Both the position numbers and the translations under genes were made by a program. Positions 7,047-37,524 of a DNA stretch of 46,446 nt are shown one piece after another. Below the pieces are notes generated by a model. The model had not been told where the DNA came from. It saw only the letters and a program-made list of their open reading frames with translations, and ran no database searches. The stretch is taken from positions 1-46,446 of the forward strand of contig JAQGNY010000052.1 in the NCBI GenBank assembly GCA_028293825.1, given 5' to 3'. Every line of letters starts with the position of its first letter. Within the stretch, counting starts at the first letter, position 1. The DNA comes from Verrucomicrobiaceae bacterium. Lineage in GTDB: Bacteria > Pseudomonadota > Gammaproteobacteria > Pseudomonadales > CAMLJR01.

Positions 7047-7087
7047 AGCTCAACTGTTTTCTAGTTCAACACAGAGCTCAACGACTT

Positions 7088-7795
7088 TTATTTACCGGTG
7101 ACGGCTTTATCGCCAACAGTCGCCTTCACCAATTTCAACGTATACAAATCATCTTTATCGTATTGATCGATACGCACGATCAAACAGCTCCAATCCGCTG
7201 CCAACCAAATTTCCGTCGGTTTGCCGTCTTGTTTATCCGGGCGAAATTGGCGCAGGTGAATCGTGTTCAGCGTGCCCACTTCGGTTTTGAGCGTGTCCTT
7301 TCCAATCAGCTCGACGCGATAGGTTTTCAGGCGATTGCGGTCGACCAAATCGAAATTGTCGCCGGCGTATTTATCCAGACTCGCGCACACGTTTAATTGC
7401 AGTTGCAGCTGATAGCTGAGCTTGTCGTACGCATTCGGCGTTAATGGCACAACGGCTTGATTGACGGCGTTGGTCACCGAATTATTCGACCAATCGAACG
7501 TTAGTGCCTGGCTTTTGTTTTTGCTGAAAGGATTGTCGAAATTGTAATTAGCCGCTTTGACGTGCGCATTCTGGAAAGTAAACGTCGCATTTTCGTTGAT
7601 GTCGAAATTCATCACGTGCGCGTTGCTTTGTACTTTCCATTGATTGTTCGGCAGCGCTTCCAATTTGCGTTCGCCACGCGCCGATAAAAAACCGTAACTG
7701 GTTTCGTAAATGGCGGAAAACGGTTTCAAGTCGGCGGCGTTAGCCAGCGCTGCGCAGCTCATCAATAAAGCGGCGATTAATTTGCGTTTTAGCAT
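7088..7795 (-). CDS. DUF3108 periplasmic protein
   Basis: 235 residues with a clear Sec signal peptide (MLKRKLIAALLMSCAALANA, then ADLKPFSAIY). The body matches my recollection of the DUF3108 family: short beta-strand segments, FDWSNNSVTN, LSYQLQLQLNV, and the terminal part PTEIWLAADWSCLIVRIDQ. Function is unknown; members are predicted exported lipid-binding-like barrels. The open frame extends to 7888, but the ATG at 7795 begins the signal peptide. The start is 4 bp after the purN stop, so it is very probably translated from the purM-purN transcript, a conserved pseudomonad-type arrangement. Confidence 0.85.
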   Translation of the reverse strand: MLKRKLIAALLMSCAALANAADLKPFSAIYETSYGFLSARGERKLEALPNNQWKVQSNAHVMNFDINENATFTFQNAHVKAANYNFDNPFSKNKSQALTFDWSNNSVTNAVNQAVVPLTPNAYDKLSYQLQLQLNVCASLDKYAGDNFDLVDRNRLKTYRVELIGKDTLKTEVGTLNTIHLRQFRPDKQDGKPTEIWLAADWSCLIVRIDQYDKDDLYTLKLVKATVGDKAVTGK

Positions 7796-7799
7796 TTGT

Positions 7800-8450
7800 T
7801 TAATCCTGATAAATAAAACCAGTATTTGGCAATGGCGCGCCGTCGAGAACAGCGCGGTCGTTGTAGAGCTGCACGCGATTTTCGGCAAACCATTGCGCGG
7901 CTTGCGGATAAATACGGTGCTCGACCTGTAATACGCGCGCCGCTATTTGTTCGGCGTTGTCGCCTGCGAGTATCGGTACACGCGCCTGTAAAATTGCCGG
8001 ACCGCCATCGAGTTGTTCGGTAACGAAATGCACGGTGGCGCCAGCTGCATTGTCGCCGGCATCAAGCGCGCGTTGATGCGTATGCAAGCCCGGGTATTTC
8101 GGCAGCAGTGAAGGATGAATGTTCAATAATTTACCGGCGAAGGGTCGCAAAAAAGCCGGCGTTAATATGCGCATGAAGCCGGCGAGAATGACGAGATCGG
8201 GTCGATAACTTTGCACGCGTGCGCACAGTTCGATATCGAATTGTTCGCGCGTCGCAAATTGTGTGTGATCGATTATTTCAGTCGGAATATTCGCCGCTTG
8301 CGCGCGTTGTAAGCCGGTCGCGCTGGCTTTATTGGTAACGACGCCGACGATGCTGGCGCGCAATTCACCGCGCGCGATGCTATCGATAAATGCCTGCAGG
8401 TTTGAGCCGCTGCCGGAGATCAACACTACCAGGCGGCACACTTCAGGCAT
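7800..8450 (-). CDS. purN: Phosphoribosylglycinamide formyltransferase 1 (GART)
   Basis: 216 residues. It transfers a formyl group from 10-formyl-THF to GAR in purine synthesis. Seen: the N-terminal phosphate-binding loop ([13 protein letters not shown]), the catalytic Asn/His motif [14 protein letters not shown], and the catalytic Asp in EQLDGGPAI. The ATG at 8450 overlaps the end of purM by 8 bp, so the two are translationally coupled. The frame is open further upstream inside purM, but family alignment supports [15 protein letters not shown] as the N-terminus. Confidence 0.96.
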
Positions 8451-9501
8451 TGGTGCGCAAACCGAGTAACTGCACTTGTTCTTCGTCGGCGGCGCGGGCG
8501 GCAATCGAACCGATCACAAACGGTGCTTCGCCTTGAGCGCGCAGTTGTTGCAGCGCTTGCTCCTGCTGTTCGACCGGTACACAGATCACCATGCCGACGC
8601 CGCAGTTAAACGTGCGATACATTTCGCGCGCATCGACACCACCTTGTTGTTCCAGCCAATCGAAAATAGCCGGGCGCTGATACGAAGCGAGATCGATCAC
8701 CGCTTTGGCGTTGTCGGCGAGCACGCGCGGCAGATTTTCCAGCAAGCCGCCGCCGGTGATGTGACACAGCGATTTCACTGTGCTGGTTTTCATCAGCGCC
8801 AATAGCGGTTTGACGTAGATGCGCGTCGGCATCATTAACGCCTGCGCGATGGTGGTGTCGCCGAGCGTTTGCTGTAAATCGGCGTTGCTGACTTCGATAA
8901 TTTTGCGAATCAGCGAATAGCCGTTCGAGTGCGGGCCGGACGATGGCAGTGCGATCAGCACATCGCCCGCGATCACTTTGCTGCCGTCGATGATTTCCGA
9001 TTTTTCGACGACGCCGACCGAAAAGCCGGCCAGATCGTAGTCGTCGCCTTCGTACATGCCGGGCATTTCAGCGGTTTCGCCGCCGACCAAGGCGCAGCCG
9101 GCCAGTTCGCAGCCGCGGCCAATGCCGGTGATCACTTGCTCGGCGGTGTCGACATTGAGACGACCGGTGGCGTAGTAATCGAGGAAAAACAGCGGCTCCG
9201 CGCCGGCGACAACCAGGTCGTTGACGCACATCGCGACCAAGTCGATGCCGATGGTATCGTGAATGCCGAGCTGCATTGCCAGCCGCAGTTTGGTGCCGAC
9301 GCCGTCGGTGCCGGAAACCAGCACCGGCTCGCGATAGCCTTTCGGCAATTCGCACAGCGCGCCGAAACCGCCCAGTCCGCCCAGCACTTCCGGGCGCCGC
9401 GTACGTTTGGCGACGCCTTTGATGCGTTCGACCAGGGCGTCGCCCGCGTCGATGTCAACGCCGGCGTCTTTATAGCTAAGCGAGGGGCGGGGGTCGGTCA
9501 T
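8443..9501 (-). CDS. purM: Phosphoribosylformylglycinamidine cyclo-ligase (AIR synthetase)
   Basis: 352 residues. It closes the imidazole ring of FGAM to AIR with ATP. The N-terminal part shows [34 protein letters not shown] and [14 protein letters not shown]; later [26 protein letters not shown], the glycine-rich [19 protein letters not shown] and [15 protein letters not shown]. The ATG at 9501 begins [14 protein letters not shown]; about 118 upstream codons are open but not family-like. It overlaps purN and is divergent from the DUF2066 gene. Confidence 0.97.
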
Positions 9502-9637
9502 GGGTAGGGTTCCGGCGCTGAGGGATTTTTGGGGAGCGCCATTGTACAGGCAACGCCCGGTCTTAACATCTCGGCGTAAGCGCTGGGCTGATGCGATATT
9601 GGCAATTACAATGCAGGCCTGATCCGAGGAGAGTGCA

Positions 9638-10690
9638 ATGGCGTCGCGATGGCTACGTTTGATGGGCCTGCTGACTGTTTTATGCGCCGCGAGTTTTGCG
9701 GTGCGTGCGGAAGTGGTGCCGGATTTATACGCCGTCAGCGTGCCGGTGTCGGGGCAAAACGCGCCGGAATTGCAGCGCGCGGCGGCCAGCGGCCTGCGTG
9801 AATTGGTGGTTCGCATCAGCGGTCGCAGCGATGCCGAGAACAATCCCGCGCTCACCGCGGCGTTGGCCTCGGCCGATCGCTATCTCGAGCAATACCGCTA
9901 CGAACGCAATTCGGCGAGCGATGCCGGCGGCGCGCCGTGGCTGGCGCAACTGCGCTTTAGCGTCGGCCCGGTCGAACAATTGCTGCGCGGCGCAGGGCTG
10001 CCGATTTGGGGTGCCAATCGACCGGCGCTTCAGCTGTGGCTGGTTGCCGATGACGGCAAAACGCGGCGCTTCGTCGAGGAGGGCGATGCCGTTATCGGCG
10101 CGTCTATTCGCCAGCAAGCGCAGCGTCGCGGTGTGACGATTCGATTTCCGAAAACCTTTGCCGGCGTTTCGACCGACGATGTGATGCAGCTAAACAGCGC
10201 GAAAATCCAGGCCAGCGCGCCGCCGCAACACGGTGAAATACCGTTACTCGGTCAGCTCGCATCGAGCAATGGCGCCTCGTGGAAAAGCCGCTTGGCATTG
10301 ACGACAGGAGCGCAAACGGTGAGCGCTGAAAACGATGGCGCTACCTTGGCGGAAGCATTACGGCCGAGCATCGATAAGTTGATCGACGGTCTTTCGGCGC
10401 AGTACGCATCGGTGGCAAGCGCGGCGGCGGAAGGTGTTTCGCTGCGTGTGTCTGGTATAGAAACTTTCGATGATTACACCGCGCTGCTCAATTATTTGAG
10501 TCGGCTGGCTGCGGTTAAAAGCGCAAATCCAACCCAGGTTGTTAACAACGAGGTTGTTGTGCAGCTGAAAATTCAGGGCAGCATCGAGCAATTAATGCGG
10601 CAATTTGCGCTGGAAAGCCGACTTACGCCAGTGGACGCAACGGCGATGGCAGCGCCGTTACTGTATCGCTGGACGGCGCCGCGAGGCTGA
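9638..10690 (+). CDS. DUF2066 exported protein
   Basis: 350 residues, with a signal peptide ([18 protein letters not shown]) followed by [19 protein letters not shown]. The family segments [16 protein letters not shown] and [20 protein letters not shown], and the fixed place between divergent purM and downstream hda, identify DUF2066. Function is unknown. A GAGGAGAG ribosome binding site precedes the ATG. The stop is one base before the hda start, so the two genes are almost certainly co-translated. Confidence 0.85.
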
Positions 10691-11522: not shown

Positions 11523-12575
11523 ATGAAAGCACGTGCATTATCTTCGGTTATGGTCGCAGCGATGGCGTTTGCACCCGTCGCAGTTTTGGCTGAACCGGGC
11601 CAGTTCTATTTGAATCCATTTATCGGCCATCAGTGGTACGACAACGACAGCGGTGTTAAAGACGGCTCGTTCTGGGGCGTCGGTTTCGAGAAACAATTTA
11701 CCGATCAGTACGGTGTTGAAGTGCAATACCTGCGCGACATCAACGGCAAAGCTCGCGATGGCAGCACTGGTATTGATGCAGAGCGCATCCTCGTCGACGG
11801 TATTTACTACACGCCGCGGTTCAGCATGTTCCAGCCGTATCTGAAATTAGGTGCAGGTCACGTACGTTACGCCGCTAACAGCGGCGGCAACAGCGATGGC
11901 ACCGAACTCGGCGCTGGTTTCGGTGCTCGTCTGTTGTTCAATGAGCACTGGTCCGCACGCGTCGAAGCGAAAGCATTGCACGAGTTGGACGACAGCCTGA
12001 CCCACGGTTTGGTATCGATCGGCGTGAGCTATGCGCTGGGCGACACGGCTAAACCAGCACCTGCGCCGAAACCTGCTCCGGTTGTTGCACCGCCGGCTCC
12101 GCTCGATAGCGATGGCGACGGCGTCACCGACGATATCGACAAGTGCCCGAACACACCGCACGGTCGCGAAGTGGATTCGGTTGGTTGCGAATACCATCTC
12201 AACAAAACTGAAGAGATGAAACTCGACATCCTGTTCGCACACGATAAGTCTGACATCACCGACCAATACACCGGTGAAGTTGAACGCGCTGCGAAATTCC
12301 TGAAGCGTTATGCCGATGTGAAAGCAGTGATCGAAGGTCATACCGACAGCGATGGTACTGATGCGTATAACCTGAAACTGTCGCAACGTCGTGCTGACGC
12401 CGTGAAGGATTCGTTGGTTACGCGTTACAACATCGATGCATCGCGTCTGAGCGCAGTTGGCTACGGCGAGTCGCGTCCAGTTGCCAGCAATGCAACGAAA
12501 GACGGCAAAGCACAAAACCGCCGTGTCGTTGCAGTGTTCCAAGCTGAAACAACTGTTCCGGTCATGAAGAAGTAA
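11523..12575 (+). CDS. OmpA-family outer-membrane protein
   Basis: 350 residues. A signal peptide ending VAVLA/EP is followed by an eight-strand-type beta-barrel (GQFYLNPFIGHQWYDND through LVSIGVSYALGD). Next comes a Pro/Ala linker, one calcium-binding thrombospondin-type-3 repeat near residues 195-209 (DSDGDGVTDDIDKCP), and a C-terminal OmpA/MotB peptidoglycan-binding domain (IEGHTDSDGTDAYNLKLSQRR, YGESRP, NRRVVAVF). It tethers the outer membrane to the cell wall. The ATG at 11523 has a strong GGAGG ribosome binding site. Codons look more biased than in the flanking genes, suggesting high expression. It resembles OprF-like and OmpA/OOP proteins; I give no symbol. Confidence 0.92.
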   Translation: MKARALSSVMVAAMAFAPVAVLAEPGQFYLNPFIGHQWYDNDSGVKDGSFWGVGFEKQFTDQYGVEVQYLRDINGKARDGSTGIDAERILVDGIYYTPRFSMFQPYLKLGAGHVRYAANSGGNSDGTELGAGFGARLLFNEHWSARVEAKALHELDDSLTHGLVSIGVSYALGDTAKPAPAPKPAPVVAPPAPLDSDGDGVTDDIDKCPNTPHGREVDSVGCEYHLNKTEEMKLDILFAHDKSDITDQYTGEVERAAKFLKRYADVKAVIEGHTDSDGTDAYNLKLSQRRADAVKDSLVTRYNIDASRLSAVGYGESRPVASNATKDGKAQNRRVVAVFQAETTVPVMKK

Positions 12576-12597
12576 TTCGTCTTCGGATGAAATAAAA

Positions 12598-12624
12598 ATC
12601 CCCGCTGCGGCGGGGATTTTTTTG
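12598..12624 (+). terminator. Strong terminator after the OmpA-like gene
   Basis: Perfect 8-bp stem ATCCCCGC/GCGGGGAT (12598-12605 and 12610-12617) with a TGCG loop, followed by a run of T and preceded by A-rich sequence. It lies 22 bp after the stop codon. Confidence 0.92.
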
Positions 12625-12686
12625 TCTGTCTTTTATCGTCGCGACAATTTTTAAGCTTCGATTTCCATTTGACTCGCAACTCAAAT

Positions 12687-13304
12687 TTAAAACAGCAGGC
12701 CGAGCCAGTTGAACAGATTGGGAAACCAGCTGCCGTCCTGTGCGTCGAGTTGCTGCGAGGCGCTGGCCAAACGCGTTTTCTGTTCCAGCGTAAACTTCGG
12801 ATACTTCGCCAAAAAAACTTGAATCGACTGCTTCTGCAGCGACGGGCAAAAAGCGCTACGCTGAGTGGTGCACGTGCTCGGGTCGGTATTGTCCGCGCAT
12901 TGCGCTGCTGCATTTTGCAGACATGTCGCCGCTTGCGTTTGCAGTACGCGGCACGCTTCGATAATTTCAGTTTCGCATTGCGCTGAGTTGCTCGCTCCCG
13001 AGCAGGTTTTGCTGATCGATTGATTGCACACGTGCTGCAATGTCAGTTCGCGCAGCGCGCCATTTTCCAATTGCTTGCGGCGCGTTGCCGTGCGGTGTGC
13101 TGTTTCAAGCGTGCTGAGGTGAAAATTCTCTTCGAGGAATTGTTCGTCCCAGCATTGCTCGGCGCGGTATTGCAGTTCGCAGCGTGCAATCGTGTTTTGG
13201 CGCCAAGAGAGATTCGGCGTGCTATCGGTTTCGTCTTGCTGTGCACCAGCGGCGGCGGAAAACAACGCAGCGATGAGCAGTAAGCGGGGGTGAGGGGTGG
13301 TCAC
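12687..13304 (-). CDS. Cysteine-rich exported protein of unknown function
   Basis: 205 residues from a GTG at 13304, which gives a compact signal peptide (PHPRLLLIAALFSAAAGA then QQDETD). A longer GTG start at 13361 is possible but would put an odd basic extension before the signal. The mature part contains ten cysteines, several in pairs 6-11 residues apart (CELQYRAEQC, CNQSISKTC), and is mostly helical with high Gln/Thr/Ala. This suggests a disulfide-stabilised periplasmic helical protein. It is last in a run yihY, tlpA-like, acyP, this gene; the thioredoxin-like lipoprotein two genes upstream could be functionally related (inference). I do not recognise the family. Confidence 0.65.
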   Translation of the reverse strand: MTTPHPRLLLIAALFSAAAGAQQDETDSTPNLSWRQNTIARCELQYRAEQCWDEQFLEENFHLSTLETAHRTATRRKQLENGALRELTLQHVCNQSISKTCSGASNSAQCETEIIEACRVLQTQAATCLQNAAAQCADNTDPSTCTTQRSAFCPSLQKQSIQVFLAKYPKFTLEQKTRLASASQQLDAQDGSWFPNLFNWLGLLF

Positions 13305-30164: not shown

Positions 30165-30628
30165 GGAGATGCTTTACAAGTCACGGTCGAGGTAAGGCAA
30201 CGGCTTTGACGGGTCCGCACTTGGCGTACCCAAGAAAGAAGTACGGTGAAAACGTGATGCTTCTTCATGTGTCCGCTGGCTAATTGGCCAACGGCCCCGT
30301 CCATATTTTCAAACTAAACACACCGCATCAGTTCATCTTGATTCTTGAATCAAAAAAAACAAACGCATCATCGGCCGGCGCATTTCGTCGATTCCTGTGC
30401 GGAGTAAAAGCCAGCTTCGCGCACAGGGCCGATTGTGCTTTGCAGCCACGTCAAAAATAACGCACCTGTGGTTGTCCGCTGACGCGGATAAATCAGTTTT
30501 CGCATTCTCGCTTTTCAGAACATCTAATCGCGTCGCGTGTGCGTATCCCTCTGCACGGACAATCTTGGCCGTACCCTGATTTTCGCGGGCGACCGCTTGG
30601 GTTTGCATGAAAATTGGGTTCAGGAAGC
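30165..30628. other. 464-bp intergenic region upstream of the ECF sigma gene
   Basis: No credible gene was found. It holds a 12-bp palindrome GATTCTTGAATC (30339-30350) followed by an A-run, the structured inverted repeats at 30370-30433, a two-block motif GCATTTC (30380) with GTAAA (30404-30408), and a small hairpin TCCGC/GCGGA near 30480. An open frame on the minus strand (30797 down to 30333) crosses into the sigma gene and has no family-like content. Confidence 0.6.
30370..30433 (+). repeat. Nested inverted repeats, possible structured leader RNA
   Basis: Outer arms ATCGGCC (30370-30376) and GGCCGAT (30427-30433), inner arms CCTGTGCG (30394-30401) and CGCACAGG (30420-30427), all perfect, with an 18-nt apical loop. 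The base at 30427 is shared between the two stems. It lies about 195 bases before the ECF sigma start, and the GTAAA of a candidate promoter falls in the apical loop. Confidence 0.5.
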
Positions 30629-31300
30629 ATGGCGATTTTTTATAATAAGCGAGCCCCGATAGCAGCGAACGCCGGAACCGGCGGGCACGGCGGCGAGGTT
30701 TGTAACGGCAGCAAGAATCGCACACAGGGCGCGACTCAAACTGGCGCGGAATTGCTTCCTCTGCTGGAATGTATTCAAGCCGGCGATCAAGCGGCACTGG
30801 GACAGCTGTACGATCTAACGTTGTCGAAGGTGTATGGCTTGGTGCTGCGCATTGTCTCGGCGCCCGCCGATGCGGAAGAGGTCACGTGCGATGTGTTCCA
30901 TCAAATCTGGCGCAGTGCCAAGCAGTTCGATTGCAATCGCGGTAATCCCTGGCAATGGATAATGGTGATTGCGCGCAGTCGAGCACTGGATCGCTATCGC
31001 GAGCGGCGGCAACATCGCTACGAAGTGCATCTGCCCGAGGCAATAACTGCGTATTCAGTAGAGCAAGTGGCGGAATCGCATTCGCCGTGGCAAGAATTTG
31101 AAAGCGGCAGCGCGGTGCAGATCGCCATCGCTTCGCTCAGCCCGATCCAATCCGAATTAATGCGGATGGCGTTCTTTCAGGGTTTAACGCATCAAGAGAT
31201 TGCAGAGGTGAAGCAATTGCCATTGGGCACCGTCAAGTCGCATATCAACCGCGCCGCAGCCACGCTGCGCAAGACGTTATCGCCCGCTGATTTACGATGA
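30629..31300 (+). CDS. ECF-type RNA polymerase sigma factor
   Basis: 223 residues. Region 2 is LGQLYDLTLSKVYGLVLRIV...AEEVTCDVFHQIWRSAKQFD with WQWIMVIARSRALDRYRERR, and region 4 has the helix-turn-helix GLTHQEIAEVKQLPLGTVKSH. It matches group IV sigma factors, the type paired with ChrR anti-sigma proteins that respond to singlet oxygen or peroxides in alphaproteobacteria. Start choice is uncertain: the ATG at 30629 was taken, with a TTG at 30614 possible; the first 45 residues are not part of the sigma fold. The stop overlaps the ATG of the cupin gene. Confidence 0.9.
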   Translation: MAIFYNKRAPIAANAGTGGHGGEVCNGSKNRTQGATQTGAELLPLLECIQAGDQAALGQLYDLTLSKVYGLVLRIVSAPADAEEVTCDVFHQIWRSAKQFDCNRGNPWQWIMVIARSRALDRYRERRQHRYEVHLPEAITAYSVEQVAESHSPWQEFESGSAVQIAIASLSPIQSELMRMAFFQGLTHQEIAEVKQLPLGTVKSHINRAAATLRKTLSPADLR

Positions 31301-31803
31301 AACCGCCTAAGCGCCCAAACAAACCGGCGACCGATGATGTGCTCGACGAGGCGACCGTTGCCAAGCTGGCCGATGCCGTCTCACCCGTTTCGCCACCGCC
31401 TGAATTAGCTGCCCGTATGCGCGAGCGCGTTATGGAAACCGCGCAACTCAGCGCGACCGAAGTCGTGCGTGCCGAAGAGGGAGAGTGGAAGAAAATACTG
31501 CCCGGCATTCGCATCAAAACACTGCATCTCGATATCGAAAGCGGCACCCAGACATCGCTATGGCGGCTCGAGGCGGGCGCACGCGTGCCGCCGCATCCGC
31601 ACTCGAAAGATGAGGAGTGCCTGATTCTGGAAGGCACCATCACGCATGACGGCAACACCTACGGGCAGGGCGATTATTTGTATGCGAGCCCCGGTATTCG
31701 TCATCGCGATTTCATCTCTCCAACCGGCGCGTTGATATTGATTAGAGGCGAGCGTATTCCCAGCAAATTGCTGCTGAATCTCGCCATGTTGCTGCCGCAC
31801 TGA
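31297..31803 (+). CDS. ChrR-like cupin protein, probable partner of the ECF sigma
   Basis: 168 residues. A C-terminal cupin has the metal-ligand pattern His100, His102 and Glu106 (PPHPHSKDEE) and His136 (SPGIRHRDF). The first 60 residues are low-complexity linker with PPPELAARMRERVM. Classical ChrR has an N-terminal zinc anti-sigma domain with an HXXXCXXC motif; I do not see one here, and the only cysteine is Cys108 inside the cupin. It is coupled to the sigma gene (ATGA overlap), so a regulatory role is likely but by a different contact than canonical ChrR. A simple stress-response cupin is the alternative. Confidence 0.85.
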   Translation: MKPPKRPNKPATDDVLDEATVAKLADAVSPVSPPPELAARMRERVMETAQLSATEVVRAEEGEWKKILPGIRIKTLHLDIESGTQTSLWRLEAGARVPPHPHSKDEECLILEGTITHDGNTYGQGDYLYASPGIRHRDFISPTGALILIRGERIPSKLLLNLAMLLPH

Positions 31804-31926
31804 CATTTCGTACGCGCAATATCGATCTACCGATTCCGTATAAAAATGGATTCAGCGTTTGCTTCGCAAGCATTGAGATGTTTTGAAATGAGCGGAGAAA
31901 ACAGAGTGAACTGGCGTGAGCAAACC

Positions 31927-33036
31927 TCAGCCCGCAGCCCTTTGCACTAGCCAAACCATTGCCAGCACGGCGATAGCCGACGAACCCCATGGCATTACGC
32001 CGGCGCGATAAAATCGCGTCGCGCGCAGCACGTAAGCCAGCGGCATCACGGCTAACACCACCGCCAGTTGCCCCACTTCCACACCGAGATTGAACGCCAC
32101 CAGCGACAGCAAGCGCGCGCCGGATGGCAACCCCATATCCGCCAGCACCGACGCAAAACCGAAACCGTGCAATAGGCCGAATAGAAACGCGATGCGCCAG
32201 CGGCCTTCGGTGACTTTGGGGAATAGATTGTTTAGCGCGGCGACGATGATCGAGGCCGCGATCACCGATTCGGTCAGCCGACTCGGCAGCCGGATCACAT
32301 CGAATGCGGCCAGCGACAGCGTAATCGAGTGCGCCAGCGTGAATGCCGTGACCACTTTGAGGATGTTCAGAAATGCCGGTCGCGCCAGCGGCACCGGTTG
32401 CCAGCGTTTGCCGGTACGCAACAACACGGCCGGCAGCAGCAGCGACAACAGAAATAGCAGGTGATCGATACCGCTCCAGATATGCCATATGCCGGTGCTC
32501 AGATACTCGACGAAGGTGCGCCATTGCGTCGGTTGGCCGAAGGCAAAGGTTTGCGTGCTCTGTTTGCCGCCGAGCACCGCCGTTTGCGTCGCGCCCCACG
32601 CGGTAAGTGTTAGCAGTCCTCGATGCGATGGATCGACATCGGCGAGCAATCGATAGTCGATATGGAACGTGTCGGGTTGCTCGTTGCAGACGGCGGTAAA
32701 CGGCAGCCATAAATAATTGCCGTCCACGCGTTCGTTGACCTTTACGCTGTCAGTCGTGATCGCGCAGGGCTGGGCGGTATCGATCAACAAATGCGATTGT
32801 AGATAAGTGCCAAGCACCGCTTGATGCGCGCGCAATTCGCCCCAGCTCACTTGGCCGTCGTTATTGCCGTCGAGGCCGACTGCCATTTCGCCATCGCGAA
32901 TAGCCAGTTCAAGCGTGCCGGAAATCGTTTTGCCTTCGACGTTCAGCGTGAGAAACCCATTGCTGGCAATGTGCGCCTGCGCGCTATTGAACATCAGCAT
33001 GGTTAGCAGTGCCAAGCCGATTTGTTTAAGCGTCAT
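31927..33036 (-). CDS. HupE/UreJ-family membrane protein with EF-hand-like loop
   Basis: 369 residues. Signal peptide (LLTMLMFNSAQA), an exported domain of about 150 residues, then six or seven membrane helices with the HupE/UreJ_2 histidine motifs WHIWSGIDHLLFLLSL, FTLAHSITLSLAAFD and LFGLLHGFGFASVL. The exported part contains a perfect EF-hand loop, DGNNDGQVSWGE (56-67). HupE/UreJ relatives move nickel or cobalt, but this large-ectodomain branch has no demonstrated substrate that I know of. The ATG at 33036 overlaps the stop of the TPR gene (TGATG). Last gene of a four-gene operon. Confidence 0.88.
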   Translation of the reverse strand: MTLKQIGLALLTMLMFNSAQAHIASNGFLTLNVEGKTISGTLELAIRDGEMAVGLDGNNDGQVSWGELRAHQAVLGTYLQSHLLIDTAQPCAITTDSVKVNERVDGNYLWLPFTAVCNEQPDTFHIDYRLLADVDPSHRGLLTLTAWGATQTAVLGGKQSTQTFAFGQPTQWRTFVEYLSTGIWHIWSGIDHLLFLLSLLLPAVLLRTGKRWQPVPLARPAFLNILKVVTAFTLAHSITLSLAAFDVIRLPSRLTESVIAASIIVAALNNLFPKVTEGRWRIAFLFGLLHGFGFASVLADMGLPSGARLLSLVAFNLGVEVGQLAVVLAVMPLAYVLRATRFYRAGVMPWGSSAIAVLAMVWLVQRAAG

Positions 33037-34307
33037 CACAGCGAATCCGCCATGTTAGTCGGCGCATTTTTAGTGGTCAGCGCCGTCGCGGTGGGATGGG
33101 CAGTGACGCCGGTAAGGCGCGAGGTAATCGCCTCGATACGCACGTCCTGCAAATTATTCGCCCGCACAAAATCGAGCGCCGATTGCGCCTGTGTTATTGC
33201 CCCGGCCGCCTGCGCGGCGTGTAGCAATACCAGCACATCGTCGTTTTCGTGTTGCACCTGCCAGTTGATAAGCGCGACCTGCAATGCGACGCGCGGTTGC
33301 TCCTGTACTTCCAGTAAAAAACGCGCCTGTTCGCGCCGATGAATGCCTTCGCCGCGTTGCTCCTCTGCCGCAAACGCAGCAGTCAGACGTGCGCGACTGG
33401 CGTCCAATCCCGGGTCGCGTAGTTGCTTCTGGGCGATGGCGATGCGCAGTAACAAGGGTTCGATGCTGTCTTGCCCTTTCAGCAATGTCAGCACTTCGCG
33501 TGCACGCTGACTGTGCAGCAATAAATCGGCATACGCAGCCTTCAGATAAAAGTCGTCGGGCGCCGCGCGCAGTCCATTTTGAAACCAGTGCTCGGCGTCG
33601 CCGTCGCGGCCCAGGCGCAACGCCATTTCGCCCAATTCGGAATCGCGCCAGGCGCGCTCTGCTGCCGGCATCCCCTGTGACGACAACTGGCTGATGCGCG
33701 CATAGGCCGCCGGCAGGTCGCCGGTTAAACCATGCAGACTTTGCGTGCACAGTTCGGTGACTTCGCTGGCGGCGCGTTGGCTCAGTTGCTCGCAACTGGC
33801 GAGCGCTTCGTCGTAACGGCCGAGCACACGCAGAATGGTGGCGCGGGTTAGTAGCGCTTGCGCATCGTCGCGACGCAGTTTCAGCGCTTGATCGATGACA
33901 GCTAATGCGGGGGTGAAATCATGCCGGCTTTGCAGCACGGTCGCGTGCAGTACCAGCGCATCGGCGGACATATTCGGTCCGCTCAACCACGGCTCCAGCA
34001 CCGCTTCGGCGTAACCCAGAAAGCGCAAATCGCCGCTGCTGCGCGCCTGTTTTATGTAGAAGTGAGCCAGCGGCAACGCCACGTCGATGCGTGTACGGGC
34101 CAGATCGCGCGCGGATAATTCGGTATGGCGAGCGCCCGCCGGAATGGTCGCCAATATCTGGCGATCATCGCTGGGCTCATAGGCTTTTGCAGCGGCATTG
34201 CTGCTCTGAAAAAGACCGATCTGAACGAGAAGTGCCAGTACAAAAAACCGACGCGGCGAGTGATTGCCGCGCAAGTTCGGTCGTGCCATTCGCTGACTAT
34301 GGTGCAT
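33036..34307 (-). CDS. Exported tetratricopeptide-repeat protein
   Basis: 423 residues. An N-terminal hydrophobic segment (RFFVLALLVQIGLFQSSNA) acts as signal or anchor. The rest is alpha-helical with TPR-like repeats, for example FTPALAVIDQALKLRRDDAQ, YDEALASCEQLSQRA and DAEHWFQNGLRAAPDDFYLK. It is probably a periplasmic scaffold for neighbouring products. The start lies 8 bp after the lipoprotein stop and the stop overlaps the HupE-like start, so all are made from one mRNA. Confidence 0.82.
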   Translation of the reverse strand: MHHSQRMARPNLRGNHSPRRFFVLALLVQIGLFQSSNAAAKAYEPSDDRQILATIPAGARHTELSARDLARTRIDVALPLAHFYIKQARSSGDLRFLGYAEAVLEPWLSGPNMSADALVLHATVLQSRHDFTPALAVIDQALKLRRDDAQALLTRATILRVLGRYDEALASCEQLSQRAASEVTELCTQSLHGLTGDLPAAYARISQLSSQGMPAAERAWRDSELGEMALRLGRDGDAEHWFQNGLRAAPDDFYLKAAYADLLLHSQRAREVLTLLKGQDSIEPLLLRIAIAQKQLRDPGLDASRARLTAAFAAEEQRGEGIHRREQARFLLEVQEQPRVALQVALINWQVQHENDDVLVLLHAAQAAGAITQAQSALDFVRANNLQDVRIEAITSRLTGVTAHPTATALTTKNAPTNMADSL

Positions 34308-34315
34308 AGCCAGTT

Positions 34316-34573
34316 CTACTGCGCGTTTACAGTGGCTGGTGGGTTGGTGTCGTCGTCACCCAGTGTCGCTTTGCCGTCATTAACTTGGATGGGGTCGGCT
34401 GTCTCCGAACTCGTTTCAGTCAGTTTCTGCACCTGCGCAGTGTCGTAGGTCTGCGTTGTAGCCGCAGCGGGAGGGGGCGAGTGGTGCGACCCGCCGTCGC
34501 CACCGCAGGCGTGCAGTAACAGCGCGCAGGCAGCGAGCGCTCCAGTTTTAAGTAATACGTTTTTCATCGTCAT
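34316..34573 (-). CDS. Small lipoprotein
   Basis: 85 residues. Lipoprotein signal KTGALAACALLLHAC with lipidated Cys23, then GGDGGSHHSPPPAAATT, and an acidic Thr/Asp/Asn-rich tail (KATLGDDDTNPPATVNAQ). No domain is apparent. GAGGACG at good spacing selects the ATG at 34573. It lies 10 bp after the DUF4331 stop and 8 bp before the TPR start, inside the four-gene operon. Confidence 0.75.
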   Translation of the reverse strand: MTMKNVLLKTGALAACALLLHACGGDGGSHHSPPPAAATTQTYDTAQVQKLTETSSETADPIQVNDGKATLGDDDTNPPATVNAQ

Positions 34574-34583
34574 GGCCGCGTCC

Positions 34584-36128
34584 TCAATCCGATACGCCGT
34601 TGGGCGAGCCGCCGACAGGCGTGTTCAGGTACGGGAACACTTGCAGGTAGTCGGCCGGGTTGGGCAGAGCGCCATCGGTAAAGTGCAATTGACGCGAGCC
34701 GCTGGATGCGGGGTCCGGGTCTTGCGCACTGCCATCGAATGGCGACAGAAGCACACCCATGGCGACACGCAATTCGATATCGACTACGTCGTCAATCGGG
34801 CGACGACCGTTCGGAAAGCCCGCTTTATCGCCCGCCAATACGCCGAGATCCTGCTGCGATCCCACCGGCGTGATGTCGGTGCTGGTGTTCAGGCGCAGCT
34901 CTTCGGAAGCGACCACATTGGCCGGTTTATTCAGTCCATCCACGCCGGTCAGAAACGCCGCTACCAGATCGGTACGCGGGTACACGTTTGGCGCTTTCAC
35001 ACCGGCACCGCCGAATAATGCTTGCAACAGCACCGGCAGCGACGGATTGGTTACGTAATCGGCAAACTGTTTATCGTTGATCGGCTGCGAGCCGTTGAAA
35101 CGATCCTTGTCCGGCAAGCCGATAACGAGTTCGTTGACCAGCGGTGCGCCGAGACGCGACACCTGCACCCAGGCGCCGCCGCGCAATTCGGTGCCGGTGG
35201 GGCGTGGAATCGGGCCGACACTGGCCACGCTCTTATCGTTCTGTGGCGCCGGGTTGAGAATGGCCGCCTGCCGCATGCTGGCGGTAGTCCAGCCGCCAAT
35301 GACCGGTTCGGTGCCAGCGGTCAGGCAGGCGGTTGGGATTTCCAGTGCCAGCGAGGTCACGTTCTTGTCGGCCAATGTGTTCGGCTCCAGCGAGCGTGCA
35401 TTGGCTCCGGGCGCCAGTTCCTCGGCCGGGTATTTGATATTCACCAAGTCGAATGTTTCGCCGAGGTTGACGACGAAGCCATCCTTGCGCTGTCCGACAA
35501 ATACTTTGCCCGGTGTGTCGCAGCCGGGAATCGTAATTGTGTGCACGAAGGTGTTGGCGTACGCGGCGTAGCCGGGAATCGATTTGGCGCCGATGTTGTC
35601 CAGCGGTTTGGTAAAACTAGAGCCGCCAGTGGTGGCATCGACCACAGCCGTTGCGGTGCCATGCCGGCGGTCGCCGCGCACCAGCGTGAGCGTGTAGGTT
35701 TCTGCAACATTCTGCGCGCTGGTATCGGTGGCGCTGACCGGCCCGATATTGCTGAGCGGCACCGGTATCGATTTAGTGCCGGCCATTACCGCAAGGCCCT
35801 GACGGTTGGTTTGAAAGCGAAACTGGAAGGTCAGATCTTCGACGCCATTGCCGTTGTTATCGACATGAATTTCATACAGCGCTTTCGGATCGAGCGTGAA
35901 GTAGTTGGGGCCGCCGTATGCATCCTGAAGTGGCAGGTAGTTCGCGATCAGCGTGACGTAGGCGGACCGATTCGCCTCGTAACTGCGAAACATGTAGAAA
36001 TCGCTGGCATCCACTTTCGGCAGGCTGGTGATGAAAGGTGCTTCGCGATGGCTGGACGCCATCAGCCCCGTGGAAGCTGTAACGGCGATCGTGCTTAGCA
36101 ATAAACCCAGTCGAATATGACCTTTCAT
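34584..36128 (-). CDS. DUF4331 exported protein
   Basis: 514 residues. A signal peptide (GLLLSTIAVTASTGLMA) leads directly into the family hallmark SSHREAPFITSLPKVDASD (His27-Arg28-Glu29) and FYMFRSYEANRSAYVTLIANYLP. The Asp/Asn-rich strand EIHVDNNGNGVEDLTFQF may bind calcium (inference). Family function is unknown. AAGGAG precedes the ATG by eight bases. It is the first gene of an operon with lipoprotein, TPR and HupE-like genes, and it converges, through them, on the ECF sigma-cupin pair. Its upstream region carries direct repeats and a motif similar to one before the sigma gene. Confidence 0.9.
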   Translation of the reverse strand: MKGHIRLGLLLSTIAVTASTGLMASSHREAPFITSLPKVDASDFYMFRSYEANRSAYVTLIANYLPLQDAYGGPNYFTLDPKALYEIHVDNNGNGVEDLTFQFRFQTNRQGLAVMAGTKSIPVPLSNIGPVSATDTSAQNVAETYTLTLVRGDRRHGTATAVVDATTGGSSFTKPLDNIGAKSIPGYAAYANTFVHTITIPGCDTPGKVFVGQRKDGFVVNLGETFDLVNIKYPAEELAPGANARSLEPNTLADKNVTSLALEIPTACLTAGTEPVIGGWTTASMRQAAILNPAPQNDKSVASVGPIPRPTGTELRGGAWVQVSRLGAPLVNELVIGLPDKDRFNGSQPINDKQFADYVTNPSLPVLLQALFGGAGVKAPNVYPRTDLVAAFLTGVDGLNKPANVVASEELRLNTSTDITPVGSQQDLGVLAGDKAGFPNGRRPIDDVVDIELRVAMGVLLSPFDGSAQDPDPASSGSRQLHFTDGALPNPADYLQVFPYLNTPVGGSPNGVSD

Positions 36129-36474
36129 GCCTGTATCTCCTTTCCGATAGTTGCCGCCCGATAGTTGGCGAATTAGTTATTGGTGTATTAAGTGGACGAA
36201 GCTAAATCGGCTTCTGTTCACCCTTTACGGAGCGGATGCGAAGGAGGGATGCACTTTTGGAAAAAATAATCTGGCGCCGCCGCAAGTGGCGCAATGTGCT
36301 TGCCGGCTACATCAACACAGGCTTCAAGTTACGCAGCGCAGCTGATAGAGTCGGTGCAGGACGCGCGGAATTTCTTCATCCCCAGTCGCGACATTCCCAT
36401 CAGCCAATCATTGAGCGCCGCAGCGACTTCCGCGCGTTCCGGTGATCGCTGAGCAATCGATAGGCGAGGCGCCG
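36129..36474. other. 346-bp region between the DUF4331 and MBL-rhodanese genes
   Basis: Contains two copies of CCGATAGTTG (36144-36153 and 36158-36167), and on the minus strand GCATCCC (from 36252) and GTAAA (36228-36224), a candidate promoter for the DUF4331 operon. Near 36277-36295 lies a hairpin GCGCCGC/GTGGCGC. On the minus strand an open stretch of about 50 codons ending at 36329 (RAEVAAALNDWLMGMSRLGM) looks protein-like but has no proper start and may be the relic of a lost gene. Confidence 0.5.
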
Positions 36475-37524
36475 ATGATCTTCGAACAAATCACCACCGG
36501 CGGCTGTCAGTCGTATTTGATCGGCTGTCCCGACACTTGCGTGGCCGCGCTGATTGATCCCGAGAGCAGCCAGATTGATCGCTACCTCGCACTGGCTGCG
36601 CGCGACGGTCTGCGGATTCACTACGCCATCGATACGCATACCCATGCCGATCACTTTTCGGCGTTGCGCCTGCTGGCGGAAAAGTTGGGCTTGAAAACCG
36701 TGATGCATCGACAGAGCAGTTACCGGGGCGTCGATATGCGTGTCGATCACGGCGAGCTAATTGTCGTCGGCAAGTTGCGCCTGAACGTGTTGTACACGCC
36801 CGGCCACACCAACGATTCGATGTGTCTGATCGCCGAAGACCGTGTATTTACCGGCGATACCTTGTTGATCGGCGGCACCGGCCGTACTGACCTGCCCACC
36901 GGCGATCCGAACGCGCTGTACGACAGTTTGTTTCAACGGTTACTGCTGCTCGACCCGGCGCTGTTGGTATATCCGGCGCACGATTACAAAGGGCGCGGCC
37001 ATTCGACTATCGGCGCCGAAATTGTGGAAAATCCCCGCTTACAGCGCCGCGAGCGCGATGACTTCGTGGCAATGATGCACGCGCTCGACCTGAGCATGCC
37101 GACCCATTTGACCGAAGCGCTGCGAACCAATATGAGCGGCGGCAAAACGATAGCCGAGATGCTGGCCGAAGCGGCCGCGTCGGTGTCGTTTATGTCGCTG
37201 GCGGAGTTGCGCCGTCAGATCGACGAGCAGCCCGGCGATCTGGTGATACTCGACGTGCGTGAACGCGAGGCGTATTTGAGCGGTCATGTGCGCGGCGCAC
37301 TTCTGTTGCCGCGCGGTCAGCTCGAACTGCGTGTCAACGAAGAATTACCCAATCCAACCCAGCGCGTACTGACGATTTGCGAGTACGGCCGCATCTCGAC
37401 GCTGGCCGCCGCGACGTTGCACGAGATGGGGTTTCAACGCGCCATTGCGCTGGATGGTGGGATGAAAGGCTGGCGGGACGCGGGCTATCCGCTTGATACG
37501 GGGGCCGATCCGCAGGCCGATTGA
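36475..37524 (+). CDS. Persulfide dioxygenase-rhodanese fusion protein
   Basis: 349 residues. The N-terminal metallo-beta-lactamase domain of the ETHE1 type shows DTHTHADHFSAL, YTPGHTNDSMC, FTGDTLLIGG and YPAHDYKGRGHSTIGAE, which hold a mononuclear iron oxidising glutathione persulfide to sulfite. A C-terminal rhodanese domain has VILDVREREAYLSGHVRGA and the active-site Cys in LTICEYGRIS. The fusion matches the PRF-type enzymes of sulfide detoxification. The ATG at 36475 has GGCGAGG upstream; a GTG at 36442 is possible. glpE at 18.2 kb is a second rhodanese in the window. Confidence 0.9.
   Translation: MIFEQITTGGCQSYLIGCPDTCVAALIDPESSQIDRYLALAARDGLRIHYAIDTHTHADHFSALRLLAEKLGLKTVMHRQSSYRGVDMRVDHGELIVVGKLRLNVLYTPGHTNDSMCLIAEDRVFTGDTLLIGGTGRTDLPTGDPNALYDSLFQRLLLLDPALLVYPAHDYKGRGHSTIGAEIVENPRLQRRERDDFVAMMHALDLSMPTHLTEALRTNMSGGKTIAEMLAEAAASVSFMSLAELRRQIDEQPGDLVILDVREREAYLSGHVRGALLLPRGQLELRVNEELPNPTQRVLTICEYGRISTLAAATLHEMGFQRAIALDGGMKGWRDAGYPLDTGADPQAD

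Follow-up and report, generated by a model that had tools for sequence, protein, structure and literature searches.

Background

What task is shared by a secreted DUF4331 protein (a domain of unknown function, DUF), a small lipoprotein, an exported tetratricopeptide repeat (TPR) protein and a HupE-type membrane protein when their genes form one operon next to a sigma factor gene? This question is raised by a stretch of 46,446 nucleotides from a Verrucomicrobiaceae bacterium (GenBank assembly GCA_028293825.1, contig JAQGNY010000052.1; termed here, at its full length, the window), in which a gene pair for an extracytoplasmic function (ECF) sigma factor and a cupin protein converges on such an operon. 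The answer proposed here, held with slightly better than even confidence, is that these genes specify an envelope system under ECF control, in which a transition metal (Ni(II) or Cu(II) being the likeliest) is caught and delivered to a permease. The parts of this proposal differ in strength: a regulatory link between the sigma factor and the operon is very probable, a transition-metal role for the operon is fairly likely, and uptake as the direction of transport is somewhat favoured. In this way DUF4331 changes from a domain of unknown function into a testable metal-binding candidate to which a permease, a regulator and a promoter motif can be assigned.

On the minus strand of the window the DUF4331 gene (34584-36128; PF14224, 2.7e-144) is followed, after 10 bp, by the gene for the small lipoprotein (34316-34573), after a further 8 bp by that for the TPR protein (33036-34307; TPR_2 match, kept across operon relatives) and, with a 1-bp overlap (TGATG), by that for the HupE-type protein (31927-33036; PF13795, 9.4e-49), which combines an anglerase-like ectodomain with a HupE/UreJ_2 permease. 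On the plus strand a SigK-like ECF sigma factor gene (from a TTG at 30614 or an ATG at 30629 to 31300; Sigma70_r2/r4 match) shares an ATGA overlap, as read from the open reading frames (ORFs), with the gene for a cytosolic ChrR-cupin protein and putative anti-sigma factor (31297-31803; PF12973, 9.9e-21). A first-pass annotation of the window had described the same six genes, and an ORF check reproduces its coordinates, overlaps and gaps; the family names that it gave (sigma, ChrR-type cupin, DUF4331, TPR, HupE/UreJ) agree with the Pfam results, and signal peptides and a lipobox, judged by eye, support its statement that all four operon products are exported. Its further remark, that no function was known for any of the four, no longer holds for the HupE protein: ectodomains of this type were characterised in 2025 (PMC12537917).

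Gene neighbourhood across genomes

A single scan with the DUF4331 protein matched 260 loci in named genome records; the best 80 of these, together with loci added from related genomes, served for comparison. All were searched with iterated profiles built from the six window proteins, and L002 (the window), L006 and L008 were taken out before counts were made on 86 loci. Counts of downstream gene order concern 80 loci with 81 DUF4331 genes, 69 of which are followed by at least 4.5 kb of sequence (the other 12 have short flanks and were excluded). Among these 69 cases, a lipoprotein gene follows on the DUF4331 strand in 61, a TPR gene in 49 and a HupE gene in 43; 41 cases have all three. The same arrangement was found in Nitrospira moscoviensis and in many Pseudomonadota, and partial or rearranged sets occur under the labels Planctomycetota, Myxococcales, Kofleriaceae and Deinococcales.

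Whole genomes give a similar picture. Of 323 genomes from the class to which the window belongs, 28 have DUF4331, and the 24 of these with a match at E<=1e-80 were set against 24 genomes with no DUF4331 match, a comparison set that is not size-matched and includes six genomes below 2 Mb. HupE_UreJ_2 at E<=1e-30 was found in 22/24 of the former (18 times no more than 5 kb from DUF4331) versus 3/24 of the latter (among which G064 has a partial match, 4.5e-18, and two others have weak matches). The window genome itself has a single DUF4331 match and a single HupE_UreJ_2 match, both within this operon. On the evidence of gene order, the neighbourhood is not due to chance and the four genes are a conserved unit; the co-occurrence in other genomes on which the first-pass annotation had made its proposal depend is indeed conserved. 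In three genomes with a more distant DUF4331 (G132, G228 and G243) the DUF4331 and HupE profile matches lie 625-834 bp apart, which leaves room for little beyond the HupE ectodomain and suggests that DUF4331 and HupE are the minimal pair. One locus, L087 (9920-13805), carries the DUF4331-lipoprotein pair duplicated in tandem.

Candidate N-terminal metal ligands

The modelled HupE protein (predicted local distance difference test, pLDDT, 91.6) has an ectodomain that matches PDB entry 9GCE with a Z-score of 12.4 and a root-mean-square deviation of 2.7 over 129 residues (Foldseek 2.4e-6). This entry is the copper-bound Ang-1 domain (RbAng-1a) of a HupE/UreJ-2 protein, which binds copper through His1 and Asn41 with a dissociation constant (Kd) of 73.6 nM, as compared with 220 nM for nickel; in the available part of the paper, a role in capturing metals and passing them to the permease for uptake is proposed for anglerase-HupE proteins, and HupE/UreJ-2 domains are called known nickel permeases (PMC12537917). 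The window protein resembles these Ang-1 proteins, as described in that source, in having a signal peptide, an N-terminal His, an Ig-like beta-sandwich and a HupE/UreJ_2 membrane domain. Its predicted mature N-terminus, His22 (A21|H22, with cleavage placed by rule), is invariant in all 39 aligned HupE relatives. It departs from Ang-1 in that PDB sequence searches with its ectodomain showed no similarity to RbAng-1a and in carrying an EF-hand-like loop (residues 56-67), which in the model falls between strands 2 and 3, at a position occupied by three helices in Ang-1 (PMC12537917). The loop may bind Ca2+ or shape the metal site. It is also encoded in a different setting: neither a DUF4331-lipoprotein-TPR operon nor an ECF sigma factor is mentioned in the available part of that paper, in which the named neighbours of Ang-1 are DUF4198, indigoidine A-like and PfkB proteins and DUF4331 is not among them. 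An exported protein with an N-terminal metal ligand is likewise the pattern of the DUF4198 and DUF6702 N-terminal-His proteins, to the latter of which the HupE ectodomain has a weak match (0.021); those, however, are not fused to HupE in the cases that the same source describes, and DUF4331 uses X-X-His rather than His1 (PMC12537917).

The predicted mature N-terminus of the window's DUF4331 protein, with cleavage again read by rule, is Ser-Ser-His. An X-X-His sequence follows the predicted cleavage site in 86 of 86 readable DUF4331 N-termini, window included (L007 was unread); 81 of them read A|SSH and 2 read S|SSH, and the three others are A|ADH, G|ASH and A|ASH. The pattern extends to distant DUF4331 proteins, of which 10/11 have A or S followed by X-X-His, where X-X is SS, AN, AD or SD (in this set L007 is ambiguous and L005 is also among the 86). 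A His at position 3 together with a free amine constitutes an amino-terminal Cu(II)- and Ni(II)-binding (ATCUN) motif, which binds both of these ions. Residues 1-27 have a pLDDT below 50 in an otherwise confident model (predicted template modelling score, pTM, 0.86), so that conservation of the N-terminus is not explained by the modelled fold; low values there would be expected of a flexible metal site. Two products of one operon, as read from these sequences, appear to expose N-terminal metal ligands.

Searches for relatives of the DUF4331 fold were uninformative and are not evidence of a new one: the model had no Foldseek match at E<=0.001, its best structural match was an antibody chain (Z 5.6), and its profile found one PDB row at E<=1 (0.58). 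Ethylbenzene dehydrogenase gamma (2IVF_C) was considered as a fold relative and set aside, its Z of 5.0 being not above background. No PMC paper naming DUF4331 or PF14224 was found in the searched literature, outside which lie most subscription papers and all preprints.

Cys23 of the lipoprotein is invariant in 31 of 31 aligned relatives, and the window protein has two acidic E-T-x-x-P-like repeats. Little but the Cys is conserved among the lipoproteins as a group, many of which repeat an acidic S-E-T-x-D-P-x-x-V-like motif twice near the C-terminus; it is possible that the repeat acts as a docking peptide.

Sigma factor and partner proteins

A related SigK-like ECF sigma gene is present in 43 of the 86 loci, window included. 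The sigma genes number 46, and 38 of them lie within 1.5 kb of an operon gene, counting all orientations; relative to DUF4331, 19 are divergent, 14 are downstream on the same strand and 13 are arranged otherwise. Those 14 may need no promoter of their own. The closest solved relative of the window sigma is SigK of Mycobacterium tuberculosis (4NQW, 3.8e-23), and the NCBIfam SigK profile is its best match, yet at 140.7 of 226 bits it falls below the cut-off.

The partner gene is where the window departs from both known systems that it recalls. Like ChrR, the anti-sigma factor of the ECF11 RpoE-ChrR system of R. sphaeroides, whose cupin ligands are at positions 141/143/147/177 (PMC6852236, available part), the window protein keeps the cupin metal ligands H-x-H-x3-E...H (H100, H102, E106 and H136 in the alignment). 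It matches ChrR over the cupin domain only, however: its N-terminus is unmatched, the zinc anti-sigma (ZAS) motif H-x3-C-x2-C is absent from it, and its sigma factor is nearer to SigK. The name ChrR-type cupin given in the first-pass annotation is therefore correct for the cupin domain and wrong in so far as it implies the zinc anti-sigma domain of ChrR. A relative in L063 has an H-x3-C-x2-C stretch ahead of its cupin. Against the SigK-RskA system (ECF19) of M. tuberculosis, in turn, the window stands apart in that the partner is a soluble cupin rather than RskA and in that the linked target is the DUF4331 operon. By definition, the window pair is neither SigK-RskA nor ChrR, but a SigK-like sigma with what its sequence marks as a cupin-only partner. 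A rejected idea was that the cupin N-terminus derives from the anti-sigma domain of RskA by trimming: the probability from hhalign was 0.9%, in a comparison weakened by wrong N-terminal extensions on some RskA rows. Longer proteins with apparently two cupin domains stand in the anti-sigma position in L073 (1451-2272) and L084 (7168-8109).

Classified by sequence motif, the partners of the 46 sigma genes are RskA-type in 27 cases, cupins in 12 and unassigned in 7; a membrane RskA-type cluster follows the sigma gene in 21 loci and was confirmed as PF10099 in L001, L012 and L019. On the sigma tree, 10 of the 12 cupin-linked sigmas share one branch, whose support of 86/87 stays short of the strict threshold of the program, and none of 500 shuffles clustered the cupin label as strongly. 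This sigma lineage has changed its class of putative anti-sigma factor while remaining beside the same operon, a natural experiment on the rewiring of signals. A cassette of mpt83, sigK and rskA also occurs in Yersinia (PMC7509140, available part). A fasciclin-domain gene in L018 (18554-19144), which has the promoter-like motif described below with one mismatch, recalls the fasciclin cassette of SigK.

A promoter-like motif common to operon and sigma genes

The window operon is preceded by an exact match to a promoter-like motif, GCATCC-N17-CGTA, at 36226-36252 on the minus strand, 97 bp 5' of the DUF4331 ATG. With at most one mismatch, GCATCC-N16/17-CGTA occurs upstream of DUF4331 in 61 of 84 regions, as compared with a mean of 1.8 and a maximum of 5 in shuffles (which kept two-base blocks, not full dinucleotide content) and with 26 of 1057 control genes taken from these loci (for which 250 bp were scanned rather than the 285 bp used for DUF4331). 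A 17-base spacer characterises 4 of 7 cupin-type loci that have the site (the window, L041, L063 and L088) versus 1 of 54 others.

A weaker site, ACATCT-N16-CGTA, lies at 30520-30545 on the plus strand, approximately 70-85 bp 5' of the sigma start. Under a leave-one-out matrix for the window, the operon site scores 14.3 and the sigma site 11.9, the next best score in the sigma upstream region being 1.4. Scores of at least 11.9 occur in 18 of 46 sigma upstream regions, window included, against a background of one match per 47 kb of strand. Matches on the reverse strand were found in 18/84 DUF4331 regions and 14/46 sigma regions, and are taken to arise partly from divergent sigma genes that would use the same region. 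The conserved co-occurrence and the common motif both support the view, already put forward in the first-pass annotation, that the sigma pair belongs with the operon. Separate TPR-HupE units have the site in L047, L055, L086 and L108, and for the separate pair in L042 the sequence is too short for a verdict.

On the scale of whole genomes, the exact motif GCATCC-N16/17-CGTA has 6 sites in G000 versus 23 for a reversed-pattern control, and no convincing upstream position was seen for the five non-operon sites, as judged from long ORFs only. The longer form TGCATCC-N16/17-CGTA has 69 exact sites in the 24 DUF4331 genomes versus 30 in the 24 others, 10 of the 69 lying within 250 bp before a DUF4331 match; this count is not independent of the discovery set, inasmuch as G205 has the same site as the discovery locus L024. 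An exact motif also precedes an FAD amine-oxidase-like gene in L013 (6030-7328).

Import genes and nickel enzymes

TonB receptors of one cluster occur in 11 of the 86 loci, each within 1 kb of the operon or of the sigma gene, and in L016, L025, L033 and L034 the receptor gene lies less than 100 bp 3' of the operon on the same strand. Receptors were checked against Pfam in L016 (8823-10910), L025 (13018-15135), L018 (16195-18348), L071 (6229-8280), L035 and L058, and by the plug domain in L065. The receptor gene of L071 has an exact motif site, and its product is nearest in PDB to YncD, a pyrroloquinoline quinone (PQQ) transporter, and to BtuB. In L065, from the complete genome of N. moscoviensis, a region divergent from the DUF4331 operon (7049-9668) contains NikR (PF08753, 3e-32) and the TonB receptor, and a TonB-like gene (11693-12835; TonB_C 0.00023, below the cut-off) stands within the operon between the lipoprotein and TPR genes. 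DUF4198 genes occur in five DUF4331 loci (L019, L051, L057, L070 and L081), and a characterised member of that family binds nickel (PMC12537917, available part). The presence nearby of TonB receptors, DUF4198 and NikR would favour import, perhaps of nickel, and the receptor distances together with NikR slightly raise the likelihood both of a transition-metal role and of uptake.

No clear association with the operon was seen for nickel enzymes, as far as urease and NiFe hydrogenase go (nickel superoxide dismutase and others were not searched). At E<=1e-40, urease was found in 12/24 genomes with DUF4331 versus 8/24 without, and NiFe hydrogenase in 6/24 versus 3/24; the window genome has a urease match and no NiFe hydrogenase match.

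Proposed mechanism and alternative explanations

The mechanism envisaged is as follows. The SigK-like sigma factor would be restrained by the cupin protein in the window, and by RskA-type proteins in many relatives, until a signal releases it to transcribe the DUF4331 operon. The secreted DUF4331 protein would then bind metal through its ATCUN end and pass it to His1 of the anglerase domain, perhaps on a scaffold of the TPR protein and the lipoprotein; the anglerase domain would load the HupE-type channel, and its EF-hand-like loop may tune metal handling with Ca2+. A bolder and more general form of this scheme is tentative and, taken as a whole, doubtful: that DUF4331 proteins are widespread secreted ATCUN proteins that hand Ni(II)/Cu(II) directly to a His1 anglerase-permease, as an N-terminal-ligand relay, with TonB delivery in some species, Ca2+ tuning by the EF-hand-like loop, and a SigK-like sigma switch whose anti-sigma factor has been swapped, being in some cases a membrane protein of RskA type and in others a cytosolic cupin without the usual anti-sigma domain. 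Neither the permease nor the sigma factor is of a new type; what appears new, against the searched literature, is the operon, together with the reading of DUF4331 as an ATCUN protein and the exchange of anti-sigma factors.

A number of observations weigh against a sigma-controlled metal-uptake system. The unit is not always complete: TPR and HupE are both missing 3' of DUF4331, on its strand, in 20 of 69 cases, and in Acinetobacter (L025, L033 and L034) DUF4331, lipoprotein and TPR are kept with no HupE in the stretch examined. NikR is found in no locus but L065, both urease and NiFe hydrogenase are missing from 8 of 24 operon genomes, and RbAng-1a is not among the PDB matches of the ectodomain, either by profile (E<=0.1) or by single sequence (E<=10). 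On the regulatory side, 23 of 84 DUF4331 upstream regions, including 6 of 13 from cupin-type loci, are free of the motif, and the motif scan found no site for the separate TPR-HupE pairs of L038, L054, L065 and L085. Within the window the top matrix score, 17.3, falls at 31027-31053 (plus strand), inside the sigma coding sequence and upstream of the cupin, and another match (12.9) falls at 31828-31853 (minus strand), antisense in the convergent gap; these could reflect an internal promoter, an antisense RNA or chance. The window has 5 matches scoring at least 11.9, whereas its shuffles average 1.7 and reach 5: the matrix alone is not specific and does not prove a promoter.

That the sigma pair and the operon are mere chance neighbours would accord with the weakness of the window sigma's own site and with the 43 of 86 loci in which no sigma gene was seen, a figure that owes something to contig ends. 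Such an accident is very improbable, given that the pairing is kept in several orientations and that operon and sigma upstream regions have a motif in common. A calcium-linked envelope response, in which Ca2+ is bound by the EF-hand-like loop of HupE and a D-N-N-G-D loop in DUF4331 and no transition metal is the substrate, draws on the invariance of D56, D60 and E67 in all 39 HupE proteins and of D90, N91 and G93 across 49 aligned DUF4331 proteins. Loops of these types are commonly structural calcium sites, and the idea leaves the invariant His1, the X-X-His ends and the copper-bound structural match without explanation; it is accordingly considered improbable. The zinc proteins ZrgA (Z 12.4) and PA4063 (Z 11.4) match the HupE ectodomain about as well as 9GCE does, which is the strength of a reading as an analogous zinc uptake system, although both were solved as separate zinc-binding chains without a HupE domain. 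With N-terminal His and ATCUN ends that favour Cu(II) and Ni(II), and with zinc having slightly destabilised RbAng-1a (PMC12537917, available part), a zinc system seems quite improbable.

More serious, while still unlikely, is metal buffering or detoxification: the same proteins would bind copper or nickel in the envelope to shield the cell from metal stress or oxidative stress, the HupE part serving as a sensor, an assembly factor or an exporter rather than as an importer. The ectodomain fold and the X-X-His ends serve this explanation equally well, and residues E106 and H136 of the window cupin correspond to E147 and H177 of ChrR, which are needed for its singlet-oxygen response (PMC6852236, available part). 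What tells against buffering is the capture and uptake proposed for anglerase-HupE proteins and the nickel-permease standing of HupE/UreJ-2 (PMC12537917, available part), together with the nearby TonB receptors, including the one in L071 with an exact motif site, which suit import. The oxidative signal that the first-pass annotation had read from the ChrR-type cupin loses its footing, since the cupin has no zinc anti-sigma domain and an RskA-type partner accompanies 27 of the 46 sigma genes; the kept cupin ligands would nevertheless be compatible with an oxidative or a metal signal. Its suggestion of a metal link fares better and gains partial support from the copper-bound His1-type fold, the apparent ATCUN N-terminus and the metal-import genes nearby, and its mention of calcium is kept alive by the EF-hand-like loop.

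Neighbouring gene

Divergent from the operon, at 36442-37524 of the window, is a gene for a metallo-beta-lactamase/rhodanese fusion, the cluster of which is also represented in L021, L025 and L049.

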